Shown here in pieces: positions 42,250 through 60,939 of a stretch of 64,000 bases of DNA. How positions within the stretch are numbered: position 1 is the stretch's first letter; each line of letters begins with the position of its first letter. The position numbers were made by a program, and so were the translations under genes. Where the stretch lies: the NCBI GenBank assembly GCA_014218215.1, contig CP043652.1:1612001-1676000 (forward strand), given 5' to 3'. The DNA is from Geodermatophilaceae bacterium NBWT11 (GTDB lineage Bacteria > Actinomycetota > Actinomycetes > Mycobacteriales > Geodermatophilaceae). Under the pieces are notes generated by a model, which was not told the origin of the DNA, searched no databases, and saw only the letters and a program-made list of their open reading frames with translations.

Positions 42250-43620
42250 TCAGCCGATCCGGACGAGCTTCTTGTTCACGAACTCGTCGGCGGCGAGCAG
42301 CCCCATCTCGCGCGAGGTGCCGCTGCGCTTGATGCCGCCGAAGGGCAGCTCCGGGGAGTCGGCGAGCACGAGGTTGACGTAGACCATGCCGGCCTCGATC
42401 CGGTCAGCGACCCGCTCGCCCTGCTCCGCGTCGGTGGTGAACACGTAGGAGCCCAGGCCGAAGCCGGTGTCGTTGGCCAGCTCGACCGCGGCGTCCTCGT
42501 CGGGCACCGAGTAGACGACGGCGACGGGGCCGAAGAACTCCTCGCCGTAGGCCGGGTTGTCCGGGGTGACGTCGGTGAGCACGGTGGGCTCGAAGAACGC
42601 GTCGGTGCGGGTGCCGCCGGCGACCAGGGTGGCGCCGTGCGCGACGGCCCGCTGCACCTGCTCCTCCAGCGTCTGGGCCGCGCGCAGCGAGGACATCGGG
42701 CCCAGCTCGGTCTCGGCCTTCGTGGGGTCGGCCGGCACGATCGCGGTCATCTTCGCGGTGATGCCGGCGAGGAAGTCCTCGTACAGGTCGGCGTGGACGA
42801 CGAAGCGCTTGGCGGCGTTGCAGGACTGCCCGCTGTTGTCCATCCGGGCCTCGACCGCGGCGGAGACGGCGCCGTCCAGGTCGTCGGTGGACAGGAGCAC
42901 GAACGGGTCGGAGCCGCCGAGCTCGAGGGCGACCTTCTTCAGGTGCCGGCCGGCCACCTCGGCGACGGCGGTGCCGGCCCGCTCGGAGCCGGTGAGCGAG
43001 ACCCCGGCGACCCGGGGGTCGGCGATGATCGTCGCCGCCTGGTCGTTGCTGGCGTAGACGTTGACGTAGGCGCCCTCGGGGAAGCCGGCGTCGAGGAACA
43101 CCTGCTCGATCGCGGCGGCGGACTCCGGGCACTGCGGGGCGTGCTTGAGCACGATGGTGTTGCCGACCGCCAGGTTCGGGCCGGCGAACCGGGCCACCTG
43201 GTAGTAGGGGAAGTTCCACGGCATGACGCCCAGCAGCGGGCCCAGCGAGGCCCGGCGGATCACCGCGGTGCCCTCGGCGCCGTCGGCCAGCTCGATCGGC
43301 TGGTCGGCGGTCACCTTCTCGGCGTTGTCGGCGTTGTACTCGTAGATGTCGGCGGCGAAGTCGACCTCGCCCTCCGCCGCGGTGATCGTCTTGCCCATCT
43401 CCCGCACGATGAGTGCGGCGAGGACGTCCTTGCGCTCGCGGTGCAGTTCGGCGACCCGGCGCAGCAGGGCCCCGCGCTCGGCCGCGGTCGAGCTGCGCGA
43501 CCAGCCGCGGTGCGCCGCGGTGGCCGCGGCGATCGCCTGCTCGACCTGCTCGTCGGTGGCGGTCGGGTAGCTGGCGACGGTCTCGCCGGTGGCGGGGTCG
43601 ACGACGACGTACTCGCTCAT
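42250..43620 (-). CDS. NAD(P)-dependent succinate-semialdehyde / 4-aminobutanal-type aldehyde dehydrogenase
   Basis: A 456-residue aldehyde dehydrogenase. The general base lies in [12 protein letters not shown] and the nucleophile in [16 protein letters not shown] (S-G-Q-S-C); [15 protein letters not shown] and [13 protein letters not shown] are typical of the YneI/GabD-like group for succinate semialdehyde. The ATG is at 43620. It is divergent, across 96 bases, from the agmatinase and amine oxidase genes, so it likely handles the aldehyde they produce (4-aminobutanal or its product). Confidence 0.92.
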
Positions 43621-43682
43621 GAGCGCTCCGATCAGGGGCTGCCGGGCTGGACGACGGATCCGGTCGTCACGGTAGCGTGCAC

Positions 43683-43697
43683 CGACGGTTTCCGTCG
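43683..43697. promoter_or_regulatory. palindrome between aldehyde dehydrogenase and agmatinase genes
   Basis: CGACGG-TTT-CCGTCG is a perfect inverted repeat in the 96-base divergent region, 19 bases upstream of the agmatinase start; GACGAC and GTCGTC flank GGATCC a little further up. It may be a shared operator. Confidence 0.4.
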
Positions 43698-43716
43698 CCG
43701 GACAGAGGAGACGCTG

Positions 43717-44730
43717 ATGGCCCGCTACGGCCCGCAGTTCGGCCCCGACATCACGTTCCTGGGCGTGGACCGCTGCGACCACACCGACCCGGCGTCGATG
43801 GCCGGCGCCGACGTCGTCGTCCTCGGGGCCCCGTTCGACGGCGGGACCAGCCACCGGCCGGGCACCCGGTTCGGCCCGCAGGCGATCCGGATGACCGACT
43901 ACCTGCCGCACGACGGCTCGCGCCCCTCGCTCGCCCTGCGCACCGACGGGCTGCGCGACCTGCGGGTGCTCGACGCCGGGGACGTCGAGATGTACTCCGG
44001 CGACATCGAGGTGGCGCTGCCCGCGCTGCGTGCCGCGGTGGCCGACGTCGTGCGGGCCGGGGCGATCCCGGTGGTGCTCGGCGGGGACCACTCCATCGCG
44101 TTCGCCGACGCCGGCGGGGTGGCCGACGTGCTCGGCCACGGCCGCGTCTCGATGATCCACTTCGACGCGCACGCCGACACCGGCGACATCGAGTTCGGCT
44201 CCCTGTGGGGCCACGGCCAGCCGATGCGCCGGCTCATCGAGTCCGGCGCGCTGCGCGGGGACCGGTTCCTGCAGGTCGGGCTGCGCGGCTACTGGCCACC
44301 GCCGGAGACGCTGGACTGGATGGCGCAGCAGCGCATGCGCTCCTACGAGATGACCGAGATCGGCCACCGCGGCCTCGCGGCCTGCCTGACCGAGGCCTCC
44401 ACCATCGCCACCGACGACTGCGACGGCGTCTTCCTCTCCGTCGACATCGACGTCTGCGACCCCGGGCACGCGCCGGGCACCGGCACCCCCGAGCCCGGCG
44501 GGCTGACCGCCCGCGAGCTGCTGGACGCCGTCCGCCGCATCTGCCTGGAGCTGCCGGTGGTCGGCATCGACGTGGTCGAGGTGTCCCCGCCCTACGACCA
44601 CGCCGACATCACCGCCGCGCTGGCCAACCGGGTGGTGCTCGAGGCGCTGAGCGCGATCGCCCGGCGGCGCTCGACCCTGCCCCCCTACGACCCCTCGCTC
44701 CCGCTGCTCGCAGACAGGAACCAGCCGTGA
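43717..44730 (+). CDS. speB: agmatinase / ureohydrolase family protein
   Basis: A 337-residue manganese ureohydrolase. The metal ligands are visible: His125 in GGDHS, Asp149, His151 and Asp153 in FDAHAD, and the pair in [22 protein letters not shown] at about 232-253. The family removes urea from agmatine or related guanidino compounds. The ATG at 43717 follows GAGGAG. The stop overlaps the copper amine oxidase gene, which would oxidise the putrescine released. Other guanidino substrates (guanidinobutyrate) remain possible. Confidence 0.9.
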   Translation: MARYGPQFGPDITFLGVDRCDHTDPASMAGADVVVLGAPFDGGTSHRPGTRFGPQAIRMTDYLPHDGSRPSLALRTDGLRDLRVLDAGDVEMYSGDIEVALPALRAAVADVVRAGAIPVVLGGDHSIAFADAGGVADVLGHGRVSMIHFDAHADTGDIEFGSLWGHGQPMRRLIESGALRGDRFLQVGLRGYWPPPETLDWMAQQRMRSYEMTEIGHRGLAACLTEASTIATDDCDGVFLSVDIDVCDPGHAPGTGTPEPGGLTARELLDAVRRICLELPVVGIDVVEVSPPYDHADITAALANRVVLEALSAIARRRSTLPPYDPSLPLLADRNQP

Positions 44731-46610
44731 CCGCACACCCGCTCGACCCGTTGACCGCCGACGAGTTCCGCGCCGCCGCGGCTGTGCTGCGCCGGGAGAA
44801 GGGCGTCGCCGAGGGCTGGCGGTTCGCCTCGATCGAGCTGCGCGAACCGGCCAAGGACGTCGTCCGCACCTGGCAGGCCGGTGACCCGAACCCGCGCACG
44901 GCGCTGGTCACCTGCTTCGAGCAGGCCAGCAACACCGCCTACAAGGCGGTCGTCTCGCTCACCGACGACGCCGTCCTGGACTGGGCCGCGGTGCCCGGCG
45001 AGCAGCCGAACATGACCGTGGACGAGTGGCACGAGGCGCACGTCGCGCTGATCGCCGACGAGCGGGTGATCGCCTCGCTGGCCGCCCGCGGCATCACCGA
45101 CCTCGAGCTGGTGCTCATCGACACGTGGGCCTACGGGCACTCGCTCATCCCGCAGCAGTTCAGCGACCGCCGGGTGGGCTGGACCGACGTGTGGGTGCGC
45201 GAGACGCCGAACGGCAACCCCTACGCGCACCCGGTGAACGGCCTGCACCACGTGGTCGACCTGAACACCATGGAGCTGCTCGACATCGAGGACACGTTCA
45301 CCGTGGCCGCCCCGGAGAACGCGATGGGCGAGTACGTGCCCGCCCTCGTCCCGGGCCTCGTGCAGCGGGAGGACGTGAAGCCCTTCGAGGTCACCCAGCC
45401 CGAGGGCGTCTCGTTCACCCTGGACGGCAACGAGCTGAGCTGGCTGGGCTGGTCGATGCGGATCGGGTTCACCCACCGCGAGGGCCTGGTGCTGCACCGG
45501 GTGGGCATCGACGGGCGCTCGGTCGCGCACCGGATGAGCTTCGCCGAGATGGTCGTGCCCTACCGCGACCCCAGCGAGGACCACTACCGCCGCACCGCCT
45601 TCGACATCGGCGAGTGGGGCCTGGGCTTCATGACCACGTCGCTGGAGCTGGGCTGCGACTGCCTCGGCGAGATCACCTACGTCGACGCGGTGCTGCACGA
45701 CAGCCACGCCAAGCCGTACACGATCACGAACGCCATCTGCATCCACGAGGAGGACGACGGCGTCCTCTGGAAGCACGTCGACGAGCACGCCGGGGCCGAG
45801 GTGCGCCGCTCCCGCCGGCTCGTCGTCAGCTTCCACGCGACGGTGGCCAACTACGAGTACCTCGTCTACTGGCGCTTCTACCAGGACGGCCAGATCGAGT
45901 GCGAGGTCCGGGCGACCGGGATCATGGTGACCTCGGCGTTCGAGGACACCCCGCCGGAGCACGGCACCGTCGTCGACGACCACACCTACGCCCCGATCCA
46001 CCAGCACTTCATCGTCGCGCGGCTGGACATGGAGGTCGACACCCCGGACAACACCGTCGTGCAGGTGCACACCGAGGTGCCGCCGATCGGCCCGGGCAAC
46101 CCCTACGGCATGGCGCTGACCTCGCGGTCCACGCCGATCACCACCGAGGGCGGGCTCGACCTGGACTGGGCCTCCCAGCGCGGCTTCAAGGTCACCTCGG
46201 CGTCCAGGCGCAACGCCTGGGGCGCGCCGACGAGCTACAAGCTGGTGCCGACCGCGGCGATCCCCGCGCTGGCCGGGCCGGAGTCACCGCTCATCCAGCG
46301 GGCCGGGGTGGTGGCGCACCCGGTGTGGGTCACCCCGTTCGACGCCGCGGAGCGCTGGCCGTCGGGCGAGTTCTGCAACCAGAGCTCCGCCGACGCCGGG
46401 CTCCCGGAGTGGACGAAGGCCGGTCGCTCCACCGAGGCGACCGACGTCGTCCTGTGGCACGTGTTCGGCCTGCACCACGTGCCGCGGGTCGAGGACTGGC
46501 CGGTCATGCCGGTGGACATCGTCCGGTTCGAGCTCAAGCCCACCGGCTTCTTCGACCGCAACCCGACCCTGGACGTGCCCCCGTCGAAGGGCGCGCACTG
46601 CTCGATGTGA
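44727..46610 (+). CDS. primary-amine oxidase (copper/TPQ)
   Basis: A 627-residue copper amine oxidase of full bacterial length. The cofactor precursor is Tyr376 in VANYEYLVYW (N-Y-E-Y). The copper ligands are His425 and His427 in PIHQHFIVARLDM, plus a histidine in FGLHHVPRVEDWPVMP. It oxidises primary amines to aldehydes with O2, releasing ammonia and peroxide. There is no signal peptide, so it is cytoplasmic, like the Arthrobacter enzymes. It is co-translated with the ureohydrolase by a GTGA overlap. Confidence 0.95.
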   Translation: MTAHPLDPLTADEFRAAAAVLRREKGVAEGWRFASIELREPAKDVVRTWQAGDPNPRTALVTCFEQASNTAYKAVVSLTDDAVLDWAAVPGEQPNMTVDEWHEAHVALIADERVIASLAARGITDLELVLIDTWAYGHSLIPQQFSDRRVGWTDVWVRETPNGNPYAHPVNGLHHVVDLNTMELLDIEDTFTVAAPENAMGEYVPALVPGLVQREDVKPFEVTQPEGVSFTLDGNELSWLGWSMRIGFTHREGLVLHRVGIDGRSVAHRMSFAEMVVPYRDPSEDHYRRTAFDIGEWGLGFMTTSLELGCDCLGEITYVDAVLHDSHAKPYTITNAICIHEEDDGVLWKHVDEHAGAEVRRSRRLVVSFHATVANYEYLVYWRFYQDGQIECEVRATGIMVTSAFEDTPPEHGTVVDDHTYAPIHQHFIVARLDMEVDTPDNTVVQVHTEVPPIGPGNPYGMALTSRSTPITTEGGLDLDWASQRGFKVTSASRRNAWGAPTSYKLVPTAAIPALAGPESPLIQRAGVVAHPVWVTPFDAAERWPSGEFCNQSSADAGLPEWTKAGRSTEATDVVLWHVFGLHHVPRVEDWPVMPVDIVRFELKPTGFFDRNPTLDVPPSKGAHCSM

Positions 46611-50197: not shown

Positions 50198-50244
50198 GCG
50201 CCCTTCTCGCCAGGAGTGCTGACGAGAAGGGCGCTTCTCGTCAG
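50198..50244. terminator. overlapping alternative hairpins, probable bidirectional terminator
   Basis: GCGCCCTTCTCG (50198-50209) pairs with CGAGAAGGGCGC (50223-50234). The same right arm can instead pair within CTGACGAGAA (50219-50228) and TTCTCGTCAG (50235-50244). The two folds exclude each other. The region lies between convergent genes, and part of it (50218-50236) is identical to a stretch inside the GT2 gene. Confidence 0.6.
50218..50236. repeat. 19-base repeat shared with the GT2 gene
   Basis: GCTGACGAGAAGGGCGCTT, identical to 29162-29180; here it is part of the intergenic hairpin complex. Confidence 0.55.
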
Positions 50245-50792
50245 GGGGCGGGGCTGAGGGCCCAGAGGACCTCGGCGGCGTCGGTGGCCGAGCCGTTGGC
50301 CCAGGTGTGCGGGGTGCGGCCGGGGAAGGTGAGGGCGTCGCCGACCTCGAGCAGGTGCGTCTCCGACGCCAGCTGCACCGTCAGCGACCCGGCCAGCACG
50401 TAGACGAACTCGACCGCCGAGCGCAGCGTGTACAGGTCCACACCACCCGTGCCGCCGGGTTCGAGGCGGGAGTGGATGACCTGCAGCTCGCGCTGGGTCC
50501 CGGGGGTCAGCAGGCTCTCGTGCACGTGCTGGCCTCCGAACGCGATCGGCGGGCCGGTGCCGGCGCGCACGAGCTGGGTGGACGGGGGGTCGAACAGCTC
50601 GCCCATCCCGATGCCCAGCACCCCGGCGACGGCGACCAGCGAGGCCACCGACGGGGACACCTCGTCGCGCTCGAGCCGGCTGATGAACCCCTTGGTCAGC
50701 TCGCAGGCCGCGGCGACCTGGTCCAGGGTCATGCCGCGGGCCTGCCGGGCGGCCCGCAGGCGCGCCCCGATCCGGGCCTCGGGCGGGGTCAC
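50241..50792 (-). CDS. XRE family regulator with cupin sensor domain
   Basis: A 183-residue regulator. An N-terminal Cro/C1 HTH (about 8-62, GMTLDQVAAACELTKGFISRLERDEVSPS) is joined to a C-terminal cupin at about 110-180 (SAVEFVYVLAGSLTVQL, then EVGDALTFPGRTPHTW). The PuuR-like architecture is typical of regulators for polyamine, amino-acid or purine catabolism. GTG at 50792 overlaps the cyclase stop. It probably controls the divergent permease operon through the inverted repeat at 51497. Confidence 0.92.
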   Translation of the reverse strand: MTPPEARIGARLRAARQARGMTLDQVAAACELTKGFISRLERDEVSPSVASLVAVAGVLGIGMGELFDPPSTQLVRAGTGPPIAFGGQHVHESLLTPGTQRELQVIHSRLEPGGTGGVDLYTLRSAVEFVYVLAGSLTVQLASETHLLEVGDALTFPGRTPHTWANGSATDAAEVLWALSPAP

Positions 50793-51454
50793 GGGGCCAC
50801 CTGCATCGCGACGGCGCGCACCGGGGCGCCGTCGGCACCGGTGAGCTTGAGCGGCAGCAGCGACACCCAGGGGTCGGGGAACTCCACGCCGGCCAGGTTG
50901 GTCAGGTTCTCCCCGATCACCCCGCCGACGGCGGCGACCAGGTGGTGCACCGGGTAGCCCTCGCCGGGGTCGTCGTCTGTGGGGGTGACGTCGAGGTTCG
51001 GGGCGTCCAGGGCGATCAGCCGCACGCCGGCGGCGAGCAGCCGTCGGCAGGCGCCGGCGTCCAGGAACGGGTGGTCGAAGTAGGCCGGGGTGCCGTAGTG
51101 CGCCGACCAGCCGGTCTGCAGCAGCACGAGGACGCCGGGGCCGAACCGGTCGTGCGGGGCGAGGTCGTCCCAGGTCAGCCGGCTGCGCGGCGCCCGGCCG
51201 CGGACGTCGACGACGACGCCGGGCCCGGTCAGCAGGGACAGGTCGAGCTCGTCGACCCGCAGCCCGCCGTCGGCGAAGTGGAAGGGGGCGTCGACGTGCG
51301 TGCCGGTCTGCGAGCCCATGGACAGCGCCTGCACGTTGTAGCCGTCGGCGGCCACGGTGGCGTGCGGCCGGGAGGCGACGACCGGGTCGCCGGGGAAGAC
51401 CTGCGTGTCGGCGTCGACCGGCACCGACAGGTCGACGACCTGGATGACCTGCAC
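50789..51454 (-). CDS. cyclase family / kynurenine formamidase-like hydrolase
   Basis: A 221-residue metal hydrolase. The motif SQTGTHVDAPFHF at about 61-73 matches the H-x-G-T-H-x-D-x-P-x-H signature, except that the first metal histidine is glutamine. VLLQTGWSAHYGTPAYFDHPFLDAGA and ALDAPNLDVTPTDD follow as in KynB-like enzymes. The start is GTG at 51454, after GGGAGGA. It shares an operon with the XRE-cupin gene and a divergent promoter with the NCS1 permease. It may deformylate or open a ring in the same pathway. Confidence 0.88.
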   Translation of the reverse strand: MQVIQVVDLSVPVDADTQVFPGDPVVASRPHATVAADGYNVQALSMGSQTGTHVDAPFHFADGGLRVDELDLSLLTGPGVVVDVRGRAPRSRLTWDDLAPHDRFGPGVLVLLQTGWSAHYGTPAYFDHPFLDAGACRRLLAAGVRLIALDAPNLDVTPTDDDPGEGYPVHHLVAAVGGVIGENLTNLAGVEFPDPWVSLLPLKLTGADGAPVRAVAMQVAP

Positions 51455-51496
51455 GTGTCCTCCCGGGACGTCGTGTTTCACAGCGGTGAACATTCG

Positions 51497-51525
51497 TTGC
51501 CCTCTGAGCAACCTGTGGATACGGT
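51497..51525 (+). promoter_or_regulatory. promoter of the NCS1 operon with overlapping operator
   Basis: TTGCCC (51497-51502) and TACGGT (51520-51525) have a 17-base spacer and lie 44 bases before the permease start. The inverted repeat TTGC-N7-GCAA (51497-51511) covers the -35, so binding would block the promoter. A second small palindrome, TTCAC-N4-GTGAA, lies just upstream at 51477-51490. The XRE-cupin protein is the obvious candidate regulator. Confidence 0.5.
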
Positions 51526-51568
51526 ACCGGCCGGTGGCCTCCGTCACCCCCGAACGAGGAGACCCTCG

Positions 51569-53095
51569 ATGGCCCACACCGACGCACCGACCCGCCGCCC
51601 CCGCGCGCTGGAGGTCGAACAGCACGGCATCGACACGATCCCCGACGCCGAGCGCACCTCCCGCCCGCGTGACCTGCTGCGCATCCAGTTCGGCGGCGCG
51701 AACACCTTTGCCACCATCATCCTGGGCACCTTCCCGATCCTGCTCGGGTTGTCGCTGGTCGAGGCGGTCGCGGCCACGGTGCTCGGCGTCGTCCTCGGTG
51801 GGCTGGTGCTCTCCCCGATGGGGCTCTTCGGCCCCAAGACCGGCACGAACAACGCGGTCTCGTCCTCGGCGCACTTCGGCGTCCGCGGCCGGATCCTGGG
51901 CTCGTTCCTGTCGCTGCTGACCGCGATCGCGTTCTACTCGATCTCGGTGTGGGTCTCCGGCGACGCCCTGGTGGCCGCCGGCAACCGGCTCTTCGGCCTG
52001 CCGGACGGCGACCTGACCCGCGCGCTGGTCTACGCCGTCCTCGGTGCCCTGGTCATCGTCGTGGTGGTCTACGGCTACCAGTTCATGCTGCTGGTCAACA
52101 AGGTCGTCGTGGTCGGCAACACGGTGCTGATCCTGCTCGGCCTGGTCGCCTACGCCGGCGCGTTCGACGCCTCCTACGACCCGGGCCCGGACGCCTACGC
52201 GCTGGGCTCCTTCGCCCCCACGTTCGTGCTCAGCGTGCTCATCGTGATGGGCAACCCGGTCTCGTTCGGTGCGTTCCTGGGCGACTGGTCGCGCTACATC
52301 CCGGCCGACACGTCGCGCCGCTCGCTGCTGTCGGCGACGCTGCTGGCGCAGCTGGCCACGCTGGTCCCGTTCCTGTTCGGGGTGGGGACGGCGACGCTGG
52401 TCGCCGGCGAGGTCGACTACGTGTTCGCCCTCGTCCAGGCCTCGCCGCTCTGGTACGCGCTGCTGCTGATGGTGGTCGCCGTCCTCGGTGGGCTCTCCAC
52501 CGGCGTCACCTCGCTGTACGGCACCGGGCTGGACTTCTCCTCGGTGCTGCCGCGACTGGGCCGGGTGCGCGCCTCGCTGGTGATCGGCGCGCTGAGCTTC
52601 GTGTTCATCGTGGTCGGCCGGCTGGCGTTCGACCTGGTGGGCAGCGTGAACGCGTTCATCGGCGCGATCGTCATCTGCACGACGCCGTGGATGGTGATCA
52701 TGACGCTGGGCTACGTCACCCGCCGCGGCTTCTACGACCCGGCCGCGGTGCAGGTGTTCAACCAGGGCCGCGAGGGCGGCGCGTACTGGTTCTCCGGCGG
52801 GGTCAACTGGCGCGGGATGGTCGCCTGGATCCCCTCGGCCGTGCTCGGGCTGCTGTTCGCCAACTACCCGCCGCTGATCGTCGGCCCGTTCACCAACGCC
52901 TTCGGCGGGGTGGACGTGAGCCTGCCGGTGGCCCTGCTGCTAGCCGCGGTGCTCTACCTGGGCTCGCTGTACCTCTTCCCCGAGCCGCGCTACGTCTTCG
53001 GCCCGCAGGGCCCGCGCTGGGTGCCCAGCTCCCCCGGCGAGGCCCCGCCGATCACCGAGCCGGTCCGCCGGGCCGGCGCGGACGTGCCCGCGTGA
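51569..53095 (+). CDS. NCS1 family permease (purine-cytosine/hydantoin type)
   Basis: A 508-residue carrier with about twelve TM helices. It opens with the family's soluble segment ([20 protein letters not shown]), then [47 protein letters not shown] in the middle is an NCS1 hallmark, and [17 protein letters not shown] is near 370. NCS1 members import nucleobases, hydantoins, allantoin, thiamine precursors and other nitrogen-rich rings by sodium or proton symport. It is co-translated with an NTF2-like protein and a ureohydrolase, so a guanidino or cyclic ureido compound is a likely cargo. Confidence 0.92.
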
Positions 53096-53472
53096 CCCCG
53101 CTCGAGGGTCTCGACGCCCTGGTCGCGGCGTTCGCCTCCTCCGACGAGGACGCCTACTTCGCCTGCCTGCACCCCGACGCCACCTTCGTGCTCCCCGGCA
53201 GCCCCCGGTTCGGCTCCCGCGAGGAGTACCGCGCGGCCTGGCGGCAGTGGGTCGCCGGGGACGGCTTCCGGGTGCTGGCCTGCACCTCGACCGACCAGGA
53301 GCTGCAGTGGGTCGGGGAGACTGCACTGCTGACCCACCACGTGACGACGACGGTGGCCACCCACACGGGCGAGGCCACCACGCAGGAGCGGGAGACCGTC
53401 GTCCTCAGCCGGGACGGCGACCGCTGGCTCGTCGTGCACGAACACCTCTCACCGTCTGGAGACACCCCGTGA
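53092..53472 (+). CDS. NTF2/SnoaL-like small protein
   Basis: A 126-residue cone-shaped fold protein. [29 protein letters not shown] at the start and [11 protein letters not shown] at the end are typical of the NTF2-like/SnoaL group with DUF4440-like spacing. Such proteins are small enzymes or ligand binders. It overlaps both neighbours (permease stop, ureohydrolase start), which marks it as part of the same pathway. Catalysis is not inferable. Confidence 0.85.
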
Positions 53473-54416
53473 GCACCCCGATCGGCCCCGTCGACGCCAC
53501 GAAGGTCCCCCGCTACGGCGGACCGGCGACCTTCGCCCGGCTGCCCCGGCTGGACGAGGTGTCCCGCGCCGACGTCGCCGTGCTGGGCATCCCGTTCGAC
53601 TCCGGGGTCAGCTACCGGCCCGGCGCCCGCTTCGGCCCGGGGCACGTGCGCGCGGGCTCGAAGCTGCTGCGGCCCTACAACCCGGCGCTGGACGCGATGC
53701 CCTTCGGCACCCAGCAGGTGGCCGACGCCGGCGACCTCGGGGTGAACCCGTTCGACATCGAGGAGGCGATCGGGACCATCGACGCCGGGGTCAGCGCGCT
53801 GCGGGCCGACGGCGCCCAGGTGCTCACCCTGGGCGGGGACCACACGGTGGCGCTGCCGATCCTGCGCTCGGTGGCGCGGGACCACGGGCCGGTCGCCGTC
53901 CTGCACTTCGACGCGCACCTGGACACCTGGGACACCTACTTCGGCGCCCCGTACACCCACGGCACCCCGTTCCGGCGGGCCAGCGAGGAGGGCCTCATCG
54001 ACCTGGAGCGCTCGATGCACGTGGGCATCCGCGGTCCGCTGTACTCCAAGCAGGACCTCGAGGACGACGCCGTGCTGGGCTTCCAGGTCGTCCGCAGCGA
54101 CGACTACGAGACCGACGGCGTCGCCAGCGTCGTGGAGCGGATGCGCCGCCGGCTGGGCGACGGGCCGGTCTACGTGTCGGTCGACATCGACGTGCTGGAC
54201 CCCGCGCACGCACCGGGCACCGGCACCCCGGAGGCCGGCGGGCTGACCAGCCGCGAGCTGCTGAACACCCTGCGCGGCCTGGTCGGCCTGGACGTGGTGG
54301 GTGCCGACGTCGTCGAGGTGTCCCCTGCCTACGACCACGCCGAGCTGACGGCGGTCGCCGCCTCGCACGTGGCGTACGAGCTGCTCAGCGTGCTGGCGCT
54401 CAACCGGACGCGCTGA
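53469..54416 (+). CDS. speB: agmatinase-family ureohydrolase (second copy)
   Basis: A 315-residue manganese ureohydrolase. The ligands are His125 in GGDHT, Asp148, His150 and Asp152 in FDAHLDTWD, and the acidic pair in [38 protein letters not shown] is typical of agmatinase and guanidinobutyrase/guanidinopropionase relatives. It differs clearly from the copy at 43717 outside the motifs. With its own importer and regulator it probably hydrolyses an imported guanidino or ureido compound, releasing urea. Enzymes of this fold also include guanidine hydrolases, so agmatine is not certain. Confidence 0.88.
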
Positions 54417-55752
54417 CCCCCCGGGGGTCGACGACGGGGCCCAGGACCCGCTGCGGGGTGCAGGACAGACCCACGCCGCGGGCCGCGAGCACCGCAGCGC
54501 CGGTCGCGGAGGCGCTGCGCACCTGGACCAGCTGCACCGGCCGGCCCAGCGCGTCGGCCAGCAGCTGCTGGACGGCCGGCGTGCGGGCGCCTCCCCCGGT
54601 CAGCACCACGGGCTCGTCACCGGCGACGCCCAGCAGCCCGGCGGCGGCGGCGACCGCGGCCGCCACGCCCTCCAGGGCCGCCCGGCCGAGGTCGGCCCGG
54701 GTGGTCCCCGGGTGCAGACCGGTCCAGGCACCGCGGTCGGTCGGCCCGGCGACCCCGCCGCGCTCCCCGGTGAGCCAGGGCGCGAACCGCACGCCCCCGG
54801 CTCCGGGTGCCGACCCGTCCAGGGTGGCCAGCAGCTCCTCCCAGCCGAAGCCGAGCACCCGGCGGACCCAGTCCCAGGCCAGGCCGCCGTTCTGCAGCGC
54901 GGCCATGGCGTACCAGCCCTGCTCGGCATCGGCGTAGGTGTGCACCACCGGGTCCAGCGCCGGGGCGGGGGTGGCGCCGGGTCGCAGCAGCTGTGCGCCG
55001 GTGCCCAGGTTGACCTGCAGCCCGGTCGTGGTGCCGGTGGCCAGCAGCGCCAGCGGGGTGTCTGCGCCACCGACGACGACCGGCACCTCGCCGACACCCG
55101 GGAGTACGGCGGTCCCGGCGACGGCGTGCGAGGGCAGCACCCGGGGGCAGCGGACACCGGCGAGCCCGACGGCGGCGGCGGACCAGTCGTCGGCGGGGAC
55201 GTCCCAGAGCAGGGTCGCGGCGGCGTCGCTGCGGTCGGTCACGGCGGGGTCGACGCCGGGCAGGAGGGTGGCCCGCAGCGCGTCCTTGGGCAGCAGGACG
55301 CCGGCCGCACGCGCCACCAGCTCGGGCTCGTGCTCGGCCAGCCAGGCCACGAGCGGGCCGGTCATCCCCGGCACCAGCGGGTTGGCCAGCGCCGCGCGGT
55401 CGGCGTCGGGCAGTGCGCGCCACCGCTCGACCTGTGCGGCGGCCCGCTGGTCGGGCCACAGCAGGGCCGGGGCCAGGGCGGCCCCGGCGTCGTCGACGAG
55501 CACCGCGCCGTGCATCTGGCCCGACAGGCCCAGCCCGCGTACGGCGTGCCCGGCCAGGGCCGGGGTCAGCTGGGCGAGGGCGTCGTCGAAGGCGCTGCGC
55601 CAGACGGCCACCTCGGTCTGCGCCCAGCCCTGCCGGGGGGTGTCGACGGGGTAGGCGACCTCCGCCTCGGCGACGACCGCGCCGGCGGTGTCCAGGGCAG
55701 CGAGCTTGAGCCCGCTGGTGCCGAGGTCGGCGCCGAGGAGGAGGTCGGACAT
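54400..55752 (-). CDS. xylB: xylulokinase-type FGGY carbohydrate kinase
   Basis: A 450-residue FGGY kinase, slightly short. [17 protein letters not shown] at the start, [14 protein letters not shown] (the xylulokinase signature), [27 protein letters not shown], and the C-terminal [22 protein letters not shown] are all present. It phosphorylates a ketopentose or related polyol sugar with ATP. ATG at 55752 overlaps the stop of the isomerase gene. Its 3' end overlaps the convergent ureohydrolase gene by 17 bases. Confidence 0.92.
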
Positions 55753-56615
55753 CAGCGGGCCAGTCGCTCGGCCATGAACGCGTGCGCGTGGGCGGCCAGG
55801 TCCCGGCCGTCGTCCCACAGGTTGCGCCACACGCCGAGCTTGTTGGACAGCTCGGCGGCCACGACGGCGGAGGAGAAGCTCTCGAAGACGACCGGACCGG
55901 TGAACCCGGTCTGCCGCACGGCACCGAAGAACCCGTCGAAGTCGATGGTGCCGGTGCCCAGGTAGCCGCGGTGGCTCTCCCCGATGTGCACGTAGCCCAG
56001 CTGGTCGGCGGTCTCCAGGACGGGGGTCACGAAGCCGTCCTCCTCGATGTTCATGTGGTAGGTGTCCAGGTGGACGCCGATGTCGCCGCCGGTCTCGGCG
56101 ATGAAGGCCCGCATCTCCGCGGCGGTGTTGACCACGTTGGACTCGTAGCGGTTCACCACCTCGAGGTTCAGCGACAGGTCGGTGCCGGCGACCTGCTCGG
56201 CCAGCCAGGCCATCGCCTCGACGGCGTTGGCCCGGCCCTGGGGGGTCACCGGCGCCATGTACTTGCGCAGGTCGGAGTAGAGCACCCCGCACAGGTGGGT
56301 GGCGCCGGCGCCGACCGCGCACTCGAGGGCCTTCGCGACCAGGTCGCGGCCCCGGGCGACGACGGCGGGGTCGTCGCTGGAGACGTCGGCGTCCGGGGCG
56401 AGGCCCAGCGAGCAGGCCGCGGTGATGCCGTTGTCGGCGAGAAGCTGCTTCGTGTGCGCGGCGTCGAAGGTGGCCGGGTCGTGCAGCGAGATCTCGATCA
56501 TGTCGAAGCCGGTGGCGGCGGTGGACTCGATGGCGAACCGGCTGGACTCGCGGGTCCAGTCACCGGCCCAGACCAGGGCGTGCACACCGAGCGGGTTGGT
56601 CACGTTCTCGGTCAT
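55752..56615 (-). CDS. sugar 3-epimerase/isomerase, D-tagatose/D-allulose 3-epimerase-like
   Basis: A 287-residue TIM barrel. The metal site of ketose 3-epimerases is complete and at the expected positions: Glu152 in NLEVVNRYESN, Asp184 in VHLDTYHMNIEE, His210 in YVHIGESHRG and Glu245 in VVFESFSS. It would interconvert C-3 epimers of ketoses (psicose/fructose, tagatose/sorbose or pentuloses). ATGA overlap with xylB suggests that its product is the kinase's substrate. L-ribulose 3-epimerase is an alternative. Confidence 0.9.
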   Translation of the reverse strand: MTENVTNPLGVHALVWAGDWTRESSRFAIESTAATGFDMIEISLHDPATFDAAHTKQLLADNGITAACSLGLAPDADVSSDDPAVVARGRDLVAKALECAVGAGATHLCGVLYSDLRKYMAPVTPQGRANAVEAMAWLAEQVAGTDLSLNLEVVNRYESNVVNTAAEMRAFIAETGGDIGVHLDTYHMNIEEDGFVTPVLETADQLGYVHIGESHRGYLGTGTIDFDGFFGAVRQTGFTGPVVFESFSSAVVAAELSNKLGVWRNLWDDGRDLAAHAHAFMAERLAR

Positions 56616-56687
56616 CAGGGGGCTCCTCGGGGCAGCAGGGGTGCCGCGACGCCGTCCGGCGCGCGGTGGGTGGGTGGTGGGGGGTGG

Positions 56688-57455
56688 TCAGCCGGCGACG
56701 GCGCCGGTGACCAGACCGACGAGGTCCTCACCGGTGGTCCCGGCGGTGTGCCGGTGGGCCACGCTGCGGCCGGCGCGCATGACCCAGACCTCGTCGGCCA
56801 GGCGGAGCACCTGCTCGAAGTTGTGGCTGATCAGCAGCACGGTCAGACCGCGCTCGCGCAGGTCGCGGATCAGCTCCTCGACCCGGGCCGTCTCCTGGAC
56901 GCCGAGGGCAGCGGTCGGCTCGTCCATGATCACCATCGAGGTGCCCCAGTGGGCGGCCCGGACGATCGAGACGGCCTGGCGCTGGCCGCCGGAGAGCCGA
57001 CGGACCCGCTGGGTGACCCCGGGGACGTTGACCGCCAGCGAGCCGACCATCGCCGCGGCCTCGGTGCGCATCCGCCGGCGGTCCAGCAGCTTGACCGGCC
57101 CGATGCCCCGGGTGAGCTCGCGGGTCAGGTAGAGGTTCTGCCAGACGGTGAGGTCCTCGACGAGGGCGAGGTCCTGGTGCACGGTCTCGATCCCGGCCGC
57201 CTGGGCCTGCTCGGGCAGGGTGAAGCGGACGGGTTCACCACCGAGCAGCAGCTCGCCGCTGTCGGGGGCGTGCACCCCGGACAGGCAGCGCACCAGGGTG
57301 GACTTGCCGGCCCCGTTGTCGCCGATCAGGGCGGTCACGGTGCCGCGGCGGACGGTCACGCTGCCGTCCTTGAGCGCCTGGACGCTGCCGAAGCTCTTGG
57401 TCAGGTTGCGGGCGACGAGGAGGTCCTCGCCGGCGGCGGTGGGAGCGGCGGTCAC
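56688..57455 (-). CDS. sugar ABC transporter ATP-binding protein
   Basis: A 255-residue ATPase. Walker A is GDNGAGKSTL at 45-54, the signature is LSGGQRQAV, Walker B is MVIMDEP, and the H-loop is in ISHNFEQVLR. It has one ABC domain, as in the FrcA branch, rather than the tandem RbsA/XylG form. GTG at 57455 overlaps the permease stop (GTGA). It powers import of the sugar used by the epimerase and kinase. Confidence 0.94.
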   Translation of the reverse strand: MTAAPTAAGEDLLVARNLTKSFGSVQALKDGSVTVRRGTVTALIGDNGAGKSTLVRCLSGVHAPDSGELLLGGEPVRFTLPEQAQAAGIETVHQDLALVEDLTVWQNLYLTRELTRGIGPVKLLDRRRMRTEAAAMVGSLAVNVPGVTQRVRRLSGGQRQAVSIVRAAHWGTSMVIMDEPTAALGVQETARVEELIRDLRERGLTVLLISHNFEQVLRLADEVWVMRAGRSVAHRHTAGTTGEDLVGLVTGAVAG

Positions 57456-58486
57456 TTGGAGAACCTCGTGAGGAAGGCGGCACCGGCGACGACGACACCG
57501 ACGGCGAGCGGTTGGTAGAACTGCGAGACCCCGACGAGGGTCAGCCCGTTGACCAGGGCGGTGAGCAGGACGGCGCCCACGACGGGGCCGATGATCGTGG
57601 CCCGGCCACCGAACAGGCTCACCCCGCCCAGCACGACGGCGGCCACGGAGTTGAGCAGGAAGCTGGTGTTGCTGGCCGGTTCGGCAGCCCCGACCCGGGC
57701 GACGAGCAGCACCGCGGCGATCCCGGCGAGCACGCCGCTGATCACGTAGGCGGCGATCTTGATCCGCGAGGTGTGCACCCCGGTCTTGCGGGCCGCCTCC
57801 TCCGAGCCGCCGGTGGCCAGCAGGCGCAGGCCGAACCGGGAGTGGAAGAGCACCAGGTGCGCGAGGACGGCGACGACCACGGCGATCAGGACCGGCCAGG
57901 CGACCGGGCCGATGCCCCCGGCGGCGAGCTCGAGCAGGAAGCCGTCGATGACCGGCTGGGGCTTGCCGTCGGCGATCACCAGAGCCAGCCCGGAGGCCGC
58001 CGACAGCGTGGCGAGGGTGACGATGAAGTCGGTGATCTTGCCGCGGGCGACCAGCAGGCCGTTCACCACGCCGACCAGTGCGGCCGCGACGATCCCGGCG
58101 AGGCAGGCCAGGTAGATCGACGTGCCGGCGACGACGAACTGCCCGAGCACGACCGCGCCCAGGGTCATCGTGGAGGCCACGGACAGGTCGATGCCCGAGG
58201 TGGCGACGACGAAGGTCTGCCCGACGGCCAGCACCACGAGGATGGCGCTGGCGGCGAGGATCGCCTCGATGTTGCCCCCGGTCAGGAAGGTCGGGGTGAG
58301 GATGCCGAACACCACGACCAGGACGACGAGTCCGATCGGGGCGGCGAGCTCGGCCCAGGGGGCGGCGCCGAGCCGGTTGCCGACGCTGCGCCGCTGGGCG
58401 CCCTCGGGTGCCGGGCCCGGCGGGGGCTGGTCGGCCACCGGCGACGGGGCAGCCGTTCCGGTGGTGCTGCTGGGGGTGGAGCTCAC
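57452..58486 (-). CDS. sugar ABC transporter permease, RbsC-like
   Basis: A 344-residue permease with about eight to ten TM helices. The RbsC landmarks are FVVATSGIDLSVASTMTLGA, AALVGVVNGLLVARGKITDFIVTLATLSAASG and ISGVLAGIAAVLLVARVGAAEP. The first 40 residues are a Ser/Pro-rich cytoplasmic tail. It lies downstream of the binding-protein gene beyond a strong hairpin and overlaps the ATPase gene. Confidence 0.93.
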   Translation of the reverse strand: MSSTPSSTTGTAAPSPVADQPPPGPAPEGAQRRSVGNRLGAAPWAELAAPIGLVVLVVVFGILTPTFLTGGNIEAILAASAILVVLAVGQTFVVATSGIDLSVASTMTLGAVVLGQFVVAGTSIYLACLAGIVAAALVGVVNGLLVARGKITDFIVTLATLSAASGLALVIADGKPQPVIDGFLLELAAGGIGPVAWPVLIAVVVAVLAHLVLFHSRFGLRLLATGGSEEAARKTGVHTSRIKIAAYVISGVLAGIAAVLLVARVGAAEPASNTSFLLNSVAAVVLGGVSLFGGRATIIGPVVGAVLLTALVNGLTLVGVSQFYQPLAVGVVVAGAAFLTRFSK

Positions 58487-58548
58487 GGGGGTGTCCCTCT
58501 CCTGCGGTGGAGCGCGGGGTGGTCGGTGCGGGTGCTCGGTGCCGGTGT

Positions 58549-58586
58549 CCCGGACCGGGGCGCGTCGGGCGCAGCCCCGGTCCGGG
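58549..58586 (-). terminator. intra-operon hairpin between binding-protein and permease genes
   Basis: CCCGGACCGGGGC (58549-58561) and GCCCCGGTCCGGG (58574-58586) form a perfect 13-bp stem with a 12-base loop. On the minus strand it lies 22 bases after the binding-protein stop and 63 bases before the permease start. It probably terminates part of the transcripts or protects the 3' end, giving more binding protein than membrane parts. Confidence 0.7.
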
Positions 58587-58608
58587 GGTCAGCGGTGGTG
58601 CCGGGAGG

Positions 58609-59643
58609 TCACTGGATCAGGTCGGCCAGCGGGTCCTCGAACTCCTCGAACGGCGCCGGGAAGGCGGCGAGGGCGTCGGCGGCGTTCTCGGTGGTGACGA
58701 CGGCGACCGGGGCGGTCACCTCGGCGGGCAGGTCGGCGCCCTGGGTCGCGGCGACGCAGGCCTCCACGCCCATCTGGCCGATGGCGTAGGGGTACTGCGC
58801 GACGGTGGCGGTGAGCTCGCCGTCGGCCACGGCCTGCAGCGCCTCCTCGTTGCCGTCGACGCTGATCACCGCGACCTCACCGGTGCGGCCGGCGTTGGCG
58901 ACGGCGCGGGCGATGCCCAGCCCCATGTCGTCGTTGGCGGCGAAGAACCCGACGAGGTCGGGGTTGGCGGCCAGGATGTCGGTGGCGGCGGTGAGGGCCT
59001 TCTGGCGCTCCCAGTCCGCGGCGACGGTCTGCACCACGTCCAGCGTGCCGTCGACGGCGCCGGTGAACCCGTCCACCCGGGCGCCGCTGGTGACGTCGCC
59101 GGCGATGCCGCCGATGACCGCGACCTGGCCCGACCCGACGGCGTCGATCATCTGCTGGCCGGCCTGGGCGCCGGCGTCGGAGTTGTCGGTGCCGATGTAG
59201 GTGGTGATGTCGGCGCCGGCCTCCTCGGCCGCGTCGGCGTCGACCGGGGAGTCGATGTTGACGATCGGCACGTCCTGGCGGGCGATCTGCGCGAGACCCT
59301 GCACGAGGTTGCTGCCGGAGATGGGGTTGACGACGTAGCAGCCGAAGTCCTGCTGGGCGAGGGCGGTGAGCCGGTCGGCCTGGCCGGTGGTGTCGGTGAT
59401 GCTCTGCGCCGCCTGGACCGTGACGTCGACGCCCTGCTCGTCGGCAGCGGCGTTGATGCCGTCCTCCATGGCCTGGAAGAACGGGTTGTCCAGGCCCTTG
59501 ATGACGGCGGCGACGGTCGAGGCGCCCTCGGCGTCGGCCGCGCTGGTGTCGTCCCCACCACCGCAGGCGGCGAGGAGGGTGAGGGTGGCCGTGCCTGCGG
59601 CGACGGCGGTGAGGGTCCGACGGACCCGGGGGGAAGAGAGCAT
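58609..59643 (-). CDS. sugar ABC transporter substrate-binding lipoprotein
   Basis: A 344-residue RbsB-type periplasmic-binding protein. The signal ends in LTLLAAC with the lipid cysteine at residue 27. GLDNPFFQAMEDGINAAADEQ, NPISGSNLVQGLAQIARQDVPIVNIDSPVD, and FFAANDDMGLGIARAVANAG are typical. It starts the importer operon under a clear promoter (59674-59702). The ATG at 59643 has an AAAGGAGG site. Confidence 0.94.
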   Translation of the reverse strand: MLSSPRVRRTLTAVAAGTATLTLLAACGGGDDTSAADAEGASTVAAVIKGLDNPFFQAMEDGINAAADEQGVDVTVQAAQSITDTTGQADRLTALAQQDFGCYVVNPISGSNLVQGLAQIARQDVPIVNIDSPVDADAAEEAGADITTYIGTDNSDAGAQAGQQMIDAVGSGQVAVIGGIAGDVTSGARVDGFTGAVDGTLDVVQTVAADWERQKALTAATDILAANPDLVGFFAANDDMGLGIARAVANAGRTGEVAVISVDGNEEALQAVADGELTATVAQYPYAIGQMGVEACVAATQGADLPAEVTAPVAVVTTENAADALAAFPAPFEEFEDPLADLIQ

Positions 59644-59670
59644 CGTTGCGGCCTCCTTTATGGCTTGTGC

Positions 59671-59708
59671 CAGACATTAAGCAGCCACTAGAGTGATGTC
59701 AACAGACA
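59671..59708 (-). promoter_or_regulatory. sigma-70-type promoter and ROK operator of the sugar operon
   Basis: On the minus strand, TTGACA (59697-59702) and TAATGT (59674-59679) are separated by 17 bases, a near-consensus promoter. On the plus strand, CAGACA occurs at 59671-59676 and 59703-59708, 32 bases apart, one copy overlapping the -10 and one next to the -35. The stretch is clearly AT-richer than its surroundings. It is the likely binding site of the divergent ROK regulator. Confidence 0.72.
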
Positions 59709-59721
59709 AAAAGGGAGATTC

Positions 59722-60939
59722 GTGACGGACACCACGCACGCCGGACCGCCCCCGCTGGACCCGGCGACGGCCGCCGGCGCGGTCGCCCTGCTGCAGGTGT
59801 TCCGGTCCTCGGGCTCCCTCACCCGCGCCGAGGTCGGCGAGCGCACCGGCTGGGCCCGGGTCACGGTCAACTCCCGGATGGACGCCCTGGCCGACTGCGG
59901 GCTGCTGGTCGAGGACGGCACCGTGGTCGGTGGCCGGGGCCGGCCCGCCACCCGCTTCCGCCTCGACCCGACCCGGGCGGTGCTGCTGGTCGCCGACATC
60001 GGCGCATCGGGCATGCGCCTGGCGGTGTGCGACCTGGCCGGGGTGGTGCTCCGGCGGGCCGAGGTGCCCTGCGCCATCGCCGACGGGCCCGCCACCGTCC
60101 TGGGCCTGGCCCTGGAGGGCCTGGCGCGGCTGCGCGACGCCGTCCCCGGACCGCCGGTGTGGGGCGTCGGCCTCAGCGTGCCCGGCCCGGTCGAGGCCGC
60201 GACCGGCCGGGTGGTCTCCCCGCCGATCATGACCGGCTGGGACGGCGTCGCCCCCGCCGACACGGTCCGGCAGTGGTTCGACGTCCCGGTGCTGGTGGAG
60301 AACGACGTCAACGCCATGGCCGCCGGCGAGCGCGCCCAGTGCCACCCCGACGTCGACGACCTGCTGTTCCTCAAGGTGGGCACCGGCGTCGGGTCCGGGG
60401 TGGTCAGCAACGGGCGGGTGGTCCGGGGCGCCCAGGGATCGGCCGGGGACATCGGGCACACCTGGGCCGACACCCCCGACGGCACCCCCGCCGAGCCCCG
60501 CCCGCTGTGCCGGTGCGGCAAGACCGGCTGCCTGGAGGCCTACGCCTCCGGGTGGGCCCTGGTCGACCAGCTGGCGGCCGCGGGCCACCCGGTGGGGTCG
60601 GTGGACGGCCTGCTCACCGCCGTCCGCGCCGGGGAGCGGTACGCCGTGGCCGCCGTCCGGGAGGCCGGCCGGGTGCTCGGCGCCGGGGTGGCGCAGGCGG
60701 TGAGCATGCTCAACCCGTCGGTCGTCGTCGTCGGCGGCCAGCTGGCCGAGGCCGACGAGCACCTGCTGGCCGGCATCCGGGAGCGGGTCGCCGCCCGCTC
60801 GCTGCCGCTGGCCACCCGCGACCTGCAGATCGTGCGCAGCAAGCTCGACGGGGACGCCGGGGTGCTGGGCCTGGCCGCGGGCATCGCCGAGCGGGTGATG
60901 AGCGACCCCGACGTCCTCCTGGCCGCCGTCGCCCGCTGA
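59722..60939 (+). CDS. ROK family transcriptional regulator
   Basis: A 405-residue repressor/sugar-sensor. The N-terminal winged helix (about 15-75, SLTRAEVGERTGWARVTVNSRMD) is followed by a ROK sugar-kinase-like domain with DIGASGMRLAVCD, GLSVPGPVE, ENDVNAMAAGER and the zinc motif CRCGKTGCLE. GTG at 59722 follows AAGGGAG. It is divergent from the sugar importer and probably represses it, being released by the imported sugar or its phosphate. Confidence 0.93.
   Translation: MTDTTHAGPPPLDPATAAGAVALLQVFRSSGSLTRAEVGERTGWARVTVNSRMDALADCGLLVEDGTVVGGRGRPATRFRLDPTRAVLLVADIGASGMRLAVCDLAGVVLRRAEVPCAIADGPATVLGLALEGLARLRDAVPGPPVWGVGLSVPGPVEAATGRVVSPPIMTGWDGVAPADTVRQWFDVPVLVENDVNAMAAGERAQCHPDVDDLLFLKVGTGVGSGVVSNGRVVRGAQGSAGDIGHTWADTPDGTPAEPRPLCRCGKTGCLEAYASGWALVDQLAAAGHPVGSVDGLLTAVRAGERYAVAAVREAGRVLGAGVAQAVSMLNPSVVVVGGQLAEADEHLLAGIRERVAARSLPLATRDLQIVRSKLDGDAGVLGLAAGIAERVMSDPDVLLAAVAR

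Follow-up and report, generated by a model that had tools for sequence, protein, structure and literature searches.

A probable guanidinobutyrate uptake and degradation cassette in Geodermatophilaceae bacterium NBWT11, with similarity to the Pseudomonas aeruginosa gbuA locus

Introduction

Two routes lead to 4-guanidinobutyrate, one through 2-ketoarginine and the other through arginine oxygenase, the latter comprising arginine monooxygenase, 4-guanidinobutyramide amidase, and guanidinobutyrase. The described locus closest to the genes considered here is the gbuA locus of Pseudomonas aeruginosa, which serves guanidinobutyrate catabolism. In a plasmid record of this species, consecutive genes encode a LysR regulator, an “agmatinase,” an NTF2 protein, a “cytosine permease,” a sodium:solute symporter (SSS), and a 5-guanidino-2-oxopentanoate decarboxylase; this is taken to be the gbuA locus because its “agmatinase” agrees by eye with the sequence of the guanidinobutyrase structure 3nio. 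A five-gene set with a similar core is described here from a 64,000-nt stretch (“the window”) of Geodermatophilaceae bacterium NBWT11 (contig CP043652.1, positions 1,612,001–1,676,000). Judged by sequence comparison, it is probably a cassette for the uptake and degradation of guanidinobutyrate.

A second useful comparison is with metformin degradation. Most characterized NCS1 carriers are reported to take ring compounds, and one of them, MetT, carries metformin and is clustered with a metformin hydrolase (PMC13390362); an NCS1 carrier can therefore import a guanidine derivative. The MetT–MetCaCb system resembles the present one in pairing such a carrier with a ureohydrolase, a likeness at the level of protein families, but its hydrolase is reported to be a nickel-dependent two-subunit enzyme accompanied by nickel-insertion genes (PMC13390362). 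The present set would be a test case for NCS1 carriers other than the metformin transporter moving guanidino compounds.

The locus and its similarity to gbuA

The five genes and the region between the two operons are as follows.

50241..50792, minus strand: XRE-family regulator with a cupin domain, 183 aa (Pfam HTH_3 and Cupin_2)
50789..51493, minus strand: PF04199 “cyclase” metal hydrolase of the KynB/isatin-hydrolase fold (Pfam PF04199, 3.4e-31)
51494..51568: divergent intergenic region with an inverted repeat, a candidate operator
51569..53095, plus strand: NCS1-family permease, 508 aa (Pfam PF02133, 1.4e-51)
53092..53472, plus strand: NTF2/SnoaL-like small protein, 126 aa (Pfam SnoaL_3 PF13474, 2.5e-16)
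53469..54416, plus strand: ureohydrolase, guanidinobutyrase/guanidinopropionase type (agmatinase by family models; Pfam PF00491, 5.4e-94)

An earlier, sequence-only reading of this region had described an XRE-cupin regulator and a cyclase-family hydrolase diverging from a permease, an NTF2-like protein, and an agmatinase-fold enzyme, with overlaps throughout each operon. All five genes were recovered in this arrangement, and every adjacent same-strand pair (XRE/cyclase, NCS1/NTF2, NTF2/ureohydrolase) overlaps by 4 bp. Third-position G+C content is between 0.94 and 0.98 for each gene, and there are no internal stops. The source genome is a single 4.59-Mb contig with two PF00491 matches (E ≤ 0.001), both inside the window, so the ureohydrolase is indeed a second one, as that reading had called it.

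The ureohydrolase, NTF2, and NCS1 genes adjoin one another here as in a gbuA-type operon, and the same three protein families adjoin in P. aeruginosa. Identities with the gbuA locus are 44% over 306 residues for the ureohydrolase, 42% over 120 for the NTF2 protein, and 56% over 498 for the permease. By this match the plus-strand operon is of a known kind, and the cyclase and XRE-cupin genes are additions to it. The P. aeruginosa locus includes a LysR regulator and the ketoarginine decarboxylase branch but lacks a cyclase over the stretch shown, whereas the window has the XRE-cupin regulator and the PF04199 hydrolase in a genome without an over-cut-off ketoarginine decarboxylase. The sequence-only reading could place the set in no described pathway, which does not hold for its NCS1-NTF2-ureohydrolase part. 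That trio was already known; what is new is most likely an actinobacterial version of the gbuA-type operon with an added PF04199 hydrolase and XRE-cupin protein.

The inverted repeat in the divergent region, GTTGC-N7-GCAAC at 51496–51512, has arms that are kept in two same-genus loci (L039 and L040), and may be an operator. For the XRE-cupin protein the nearest NCBIfam model was PuuR, with the cut-off missed by a wide margin (58 vs. 211 bits).

Substrate class of the ureohydrolase

Against PDB proteins, the window ureohydrolase scored highest with guanidinobutyrase (3nio, 283 bits), followed by guanidinopropionase (3nip, 276 bits) and proclavaminate amidinohydrolase (PAH, 251 bits). Solved agmatinases reached at most 206 bits, at least 77 below guanidinobutyrase. 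Two entries that we take to be guanidine hydrolase, 7esr (deposited as “Probable agmatinase 2”) and 9fek (agmatinase 2), gave only 160 and 146 bits, and that identity was rejected on these scores. The protein passes the NCBIfam agmatinase models PRK02190 (306 bits, cut-off 302) and TIGR01230 (229 bits, cut-off 174), but this label is not discriminating, because the gbuA product itself carries the annotation “speB: agmatinase” in the P. aeruginosa record.

Arg72 of GbuA, contributed by the neighboring subunit, is reported to cap the active site, where it may contact the carboxylate of the substrate (PMC9772407). By our count on an alignment with PDB sequences it corresponds to Arg68 of the window enzyme, a position occupied by Ala in 4dz4 and Trp in 7lol, the two agmatinases aligned. 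Arg68, the six ligands of the binuclear metal center (H125, D148, H150, D152, D239, and D241), and Tyr157 are invariant in all 107 relatives described below. The best PDB match and the kept arginine bear out the earlier suggestion to the extent that this enzyme looks unlike an agmatinase; agmatinase identity was set aside on the scores (206 vs. 283 bits) and the presence of Arg68. A guanidino acid is thus a well-supported candidate for the substrate, and a four-carbon rather than a three-carbon one is a less well-supported refinement. Guanidinopropionase GpuA (3nip) scores nearly as high as GbuA and has the same Tyr at the specificity position, but the genes found around relatives of the window enzyme suggest 4-guanidinobutyrate.

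Relatives of the ureohydrolase and their neighborhoods

In an order-level sample, 48 of 91 genomes matched the ureohydrolase at E ≤ 1e-40. There were 26 intact matches at least 57% identical to it, in 25 genomes, and one broken copy (G019:C1:5295130-5298756, L028), a close homolog broken into two pieces, one of which contains a TGA. Outside the window there were 25 such matches; wider stretches were taken for all of them except that in G090 (24 in total), along with two others. A GTDB scan contributed the best 80 of 594 confirmed stretches; its closest named matches, at 88–90%, are from Geodermatophilus and Blastococcus, although very near records may be omitted. Genes were called with a codon score of our own and clusters labeled in 26 order-level, 80 GTDB, 6 plasmid, and 54 cyclase-anchored stretches and the window. 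This left 107 ureohydrolase loci of at least 350 bits and 260 aa (24 order-level, 73 GTDB, 2 plasmid, 7 cyclase-anchored, and the window), the filter having dropped 7 of the 80 GTDB and 4 of the 6 plasmid loci.

The sequence-only reading would have been refuted had the five genes not stayed together in relatives. They do so in 14 of the 107 loci, and the cyclase, NTF2, and NCS1 genes do in 17 (order-level 3/24, GTDB 8/73, cyclase-anchored 5/7). The five-gene loci belong to the window's family (three), the Microbacteriaceae (six), and four further families (five, some of which may be Microbacteriaceae). The four non-regulator genes occur in five arrangements, or seven with the regulator counted, one of these owing solely to no XRE gene being found in L039. 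In two Streptomyces loci a PucR-type regulator takes the place of the XRE one. Six Microbacteriaceae-type and two Streptomyces loci have their cyclase, ureohydrolase, and NCS1 genes all on one strand. The set is more than a chance association, recurring as it does in other Actinomycetes in several gene orders. An NCS1 gene is present in 35 of the 107 loci, yet in all 20 with a cyclase (Fisher 1e-12) and all 21 with an NTF2 gene (2e-13); these are not true probabilities, since the rows are related. The ureohydrolases of Streptomyces samsunensis (L099) and S. endocoffeicus (L119) are sisters, yet L119 alone has NCS1-cyclase-NTF2 between the ureohydrolase and an aldehyde dehydrogenase (ALDH) gene; the three therefore behave as a block there.

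In a separate case, L036 (G068:C25), an NTF2-NCS1 pair is accompanied by a regulator gene of the PucR type and by two of the ALDH-cluster genes, with no ureohydrolase in the 14.9-kb stretch; the same genome has a ureohydrolase on another contig (L047).

Counting four genes to each side, the commonest neighborhoods in the 107 loci were a thiamine diphosphate (ThDP) decarboxylase alone (38), NCS1 with NTF2 and cyclase (17), and none of the labeled families (17). These were followed by CN-hydrolase with oxidase (8); NCS1 alone, CN-hydrolase alone, and NCS1 with CN-hydrolase (4 each); NCS1 with decarboxylase, oxidase alone, and NCS1 with cyclase (3 each); NCS1 with NTF2 (2); and four mixtures found once each. 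The ThDP protein of L041, taken as the single representative, has 5-guanidino-2-oxopentanoate decarboxylase as its nearest model (481 bits, cut-off 500), an ALDH neighbor in L051 passes an aminobutyraldehyde dehydrogenase model, and the oxidase of L047, likewise a single representative, is a flavin amine oxidoreductase adjoining the CN-hydrolase. Oxidase-type clusters combine a flavin amine oxidase, a CN-hydrolase, and an amino acid permease with the ureohydrolase; on a Tsukamurella plasmid, consecutive genes encode an XRE regulator, an “agmatinase,” an amino acid permease, a CN-hydrolase, and a flavin adenine dinucleotide (FAD) oxidoreductase. We take the ThDP and oxidase neighborhoods to be the 2-ketoarginine and arginine oxygenase routes, respectively. 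The presumed arginine oxygenase clusters hold close relatives of the window ureohydrolase (89%, Geodermatophilus siccatus) and an XRE regulator; in the window, an importer and a cyclase stand in place of their oxidase, CN-hydrolase, and amino acid permease.

On a quickly built ureohydrolase tree, which has 109 rows and several long branches, the NCS1-plus-cyclase state changes 11 times, at least six of them forced by well-supported branches, and the relatives switch repeatedly among 2-ketoarginine-decarboxylase-like, arginine-oxidase-like, and NCS1 neighbors. From the frequency of these changes, the ureohydrolase appears to keep its job while the genes that feed it are exchanged.

In L048, a ureohydrolase of the same clade lies near an NCS2-type permease, a protein resembling the FAD subunit of molybdo-hydroxylases, and a PucR regulator. 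L049 has the same gene clusters around its ureohydrolase, the families having been read in L048. Outside these loci, a Klebsiella pneumoniae plasmid typed as conjugative (NZ_CP132652.1, L231) has an NTF2-NCS1-ALDH series, an amino-acid-type ABC transporter, and, five listed genes on, an “agmatinase” 39% identical to the window ureohydrolase; this is possibly a mobile guanidino-compound cluster.

The PF04199 hydrolase and the import branch

The window cyclase keeps GTHxDxPxH and the KynB-type Glu (E195). The isatin hydrolase motif is reported as HxG[T/A]HxDxPxH (PMC6117287), which the cyclase sequence QTGTHVDAPFH matches except at the first His, replaced here by Gln. Among the 65 cyclases listed, this position is Q in 43 and H in 15, and the motif was unmatched in seven. 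The protein shares its fold family and most of its metal motif with KynB and isatin hydrolase, but differs from them in this Gln and in falling under the arylformamidase (KynB) NCBIfam cut-off (84 vs. 223 bits). The isatin-hydrolase GLQC/GLAS motif is not found in it, E195 standing at the aligned place. Membership in either group was excluded on motif and cut-off. In the structural model, residues 35–63, just ahead of the metal motif, have a predicted local distance difference test (pLDDT) score below 50.

Cyclase and CN-hydrolase are found together in none of the 107 ureohydrolase loci; the 35 with NCS1 divide into 20 with cyclase, five with CN-hydrolase, none with both, and 10 with neither (Fisher 0.009). 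On a Rhodococcus qingshengii plasmid (NZ_CP054209.1, L232), a creatininase-family protein is encoded beside an NCS1 permease (48% identical to that of the window) and an arginase-family protein (31% identical). Together these suggest a slot for a C-N hydrolase beside NCS1 and ureohydrolase. The constant company of NCS1 and the lack of overlap with CN-hydrolase in these loci likewise suggest that the cyclase opens an amide or lactam upstream of the ureohydrolase. A pure exchange of cyclase for CN-hydrolase was also considered, and is weakened by four loci (L178, L179, L180, and L182) with both genes side by side and no ureohydrolase nearby.

L232 also holds an MFS gene and, further on, a urea carboxylase-associated protein, and its genes could possibly form a related guanidino pathway. 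A Peribacillus plasmid has a permease-cyclase-ALDH series with no ureohydrolase listed; its cyclase and permease are 40 and 21% identical to those of the window.

The permease matches PF02133 but misses the cut-off of the NCS1 subfamily model TIGR00800 (85 vs. 353 bits), and found no PDB match either alone (E ≤ 0.001) or as a 12-row profile (E ≤ 0.1). The NTF2-like protein, a frequent small partner of the import branch judging by its co-occurrence, was modeled with a mean pLDDT of 96; its nearest solved relatives are CaMKII hub domains by sequence profile (2.5e-6) and SgcJ by fold. The CaMKII-alpha hub is reported to bind gamma-hydroxybutyrate ligands through His395, Arg433, Arg453, and Arg469 (PMC12148480). 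A corresponding butyrate-binding role for the NTF2-like protein was rejected: on our reading of the alignment, NTF2-family proteins have Ile/Val in place of Arg453 and Leu in place of Arg469, so the site is not kept.

Possible sources of guanidinobutyrate

The source genome encodes urease alpha and a gamma-aminobutyrate (GABA) transaminase (593 bits, cut-off 507). No ketoarginine decarboxylase of the 5-guanidino-2-oxopentanoate type was over the cut-off in the genome (best 319 of 500 bits), and a single arginine oxidase query found nothing there better than E 7e-4. With neither gene evident, the guanidino acid is plausibly supplied from outside.

Alternatively, it may be formed from agmatine by way of a copper amine oxidase and an ALDH whose genes flank that of the first ureohydrolase (region 42250–46610). 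The latter gene (43717–44730) overlaps that of the copper amine oxidase (44727–46610, PF01179) by 4 bp and diverges from that of the ALDH (42250–43620); its product's best PDB matches are PAH (198 bits) and 9fek, there named “Putative agmatinase 2” (186 bits). In L039, L040, L060, and L106, too, such a ureohydrolase-copper amine oxidase pair is found no more than 10 kb from the second ureohydrolase. L035 has two adjacent ureohydrolases without this pair.

Proposed pathway and alternatives

From gene content, family membership, synteny with gbuA, active-site residues, and co-occurrence, we infer the substrate, the direction of transport, the reaction of the cyclase, the target of the regulator, and the role of the NTF2-like protein; the class of the ureohydrolase and the linkage of the genes are, among the sequence-based conclusions, well supported. 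In the scheme considered most probable, the NCS1 permease would import 4-guanidinobutyrate, either free or masked as an amide or lactam, the PF04199 hydrolase would free the carboxylate where the acid is masked, and the ureohydrolase (53469–54416) would split 4-guanidinobutyrate into GABA and urea. GABA would enter central metabolism through the transaminase encoded elsewhere, urea would be handled by the encoded urease, and the XRE-cupin protein would act as local regulator. A more specific version can be put forward only tentatively: that the carrier imports 4-guanidinobutyramide or 1-amidino-2-pyrrolidinone, that the PF04199 hydrolase, as a member of an uncharacterized clade, opens it, and that the NTF2-like protein is devoted to this route as a partner in catalysis or binding. 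If this were true, three unrelated C-N hydrolase families (PF04199, CN-hydrolase, and creatininase) would fill one slot by NCS1 and ureohydrolase.

Several observations weigh against the guanidinobutyrate scheme. NCS1 is missing from 72 of the 107 ureohydrolase loci; in the 35 that have it, NTF2 is missing from 14 and the cyclase from 15. The P. aeruginosa locus has no cyclase. Among the papers listed in a search that covered few subscription papers, none reported, by title or start of abstract, an NCS1-family guanidinobutyrate carrier, and none gave a transport substrate for a gbuA-linked NCS1 permease. At the substrate loop the ureohydrolase lacks the Met of GbuA: its Tyr157 aligns with Tyr157 of GpuA and Met161 of GbuA, residues reported to recognize the substrate, and 3-guanidinopropionate is for this reason a possible substrate. 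The Aspergillus niger guanidinobutyrase is reported to have Tyr there as well (PMC10833137), so Met does not define all guanidinobutyrases. A 3-guanidinopropionase, or a broad guanidino-acid hydrolase acting for example on taurocyamine, would yield beta-alanine or taurine with urea; it would account for Tyr157 and for a 15-residue stretch closer to 3nip than to guanidinobutyrase, and there is precedent in the yeast guanidinobutyrase, reported to take both acids, and human AGMAT, reported to take several (PMC9772407, PMC10833137). It is nevertheless judged unlikely. The relatives that share Tyr157, all 107 of them, include clusters read as arginine oxygenase or ketoarginine decarboxylase routes, both of which yield the four-carbon acid. 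Were the enzyme a true agmatinase, with putrescine as its product and agmatine imported by the NCS1 carrier, its passing of PRK02190 and TIGR01230 would be explained, but this is very improbable given the gap of at least 77 bits to the solved agmatinases, the lack of Arg68 in the two aligned, the identical label on the gbuA product, and the synteny with gbuA.

The remaining alternatives concern the cyclase. The sequence-only reading proposed catabolism of an imported cyclic or guanidino compound, for example a hydantoin or creatinine-like one; the guanidino part has stood, through the gbuA match and Arg68, while a ring substrate is neither shown nor needed, the cyclase alone hinting at an amide or ring bond. 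Import of such a ring, its opening by the cyclase, and release of urea from the resulting guanidino acid would suit the preference of most characterized NCS1 carriers (PMC13390362), the presence of the cyclic amidohydrolase isatin hydrolase among the relatives of the cyclase, and the creatininase-family protein beside NCS1 and arginase-family genes in Rhodococcus. The trio occurs in P. aeruginosa without any cyclase, however, and that of the window has the KynB-type Glu rather than GLQC/GLAS, so that this alternative seems improbable. Somewhat less so, though still doubtful, is that the cyclase and the regulator belong to an independent unit (the cyclase being, for instance, a formamidase with a different metabolite as substrate) that lies beside a gbuA-type operon by coincidence. 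The cyclase is on the opposite strand in the window, and its wider distribution is mixed: 81 of 394 genomes in a survey of the class matched it at E ≤ 1e-35, and of 54 loci taken (all E ≤ 1.1e-50, its own excluded), nine have NCS1 nearby (seven with a ureohydrolase), five are in a PucR/CN-hydrolase/ALDH setting, and 40 are elsewhere, without NCS1 or a PucR/amidase setting. Two of the 40 have no called cyclase (L198 and L222), and a third, L208, has an adjacent XRE gene and is cut off by the contig end. L185 and L214 have NCS1 and cyclase with no ureohydrolase in the stretch taken. The tie of the cyclase to a guanidinobutyrate pathway thus holds for a subset, which also counts against the scheme. 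On the other side, the eight Microbacteriaceae-type and Streptomyces loci have the cyclase on the same strand as ureohydrolase and NCS1, and within the 107 ureohydrolase loci none of the 20 cyclases occurs without NCS1.

Many “agmatinase” and “cytosine permease” genes of Actinomycetes may be guanidino-acid enzymes and carriers; polyamine and GABA metabolism would be predicted differently if they were relabeled. The five genes would also offer a physiological setting in which to assay the PF04199 hydrolase and the NTF2-like protein.

Adjacent genes

Downstream of the cassette (region 54400–60939), an FGGY kinase gene is convergent with the ureohydrolase, overlapping it by 17 bp. It is followed by genes for a xylose-isomerase-like TIM barrel, an ABC ATPase, a permease, a sugar-type binding protein, and a divergent ROK protein, together a sugar uptake operon.

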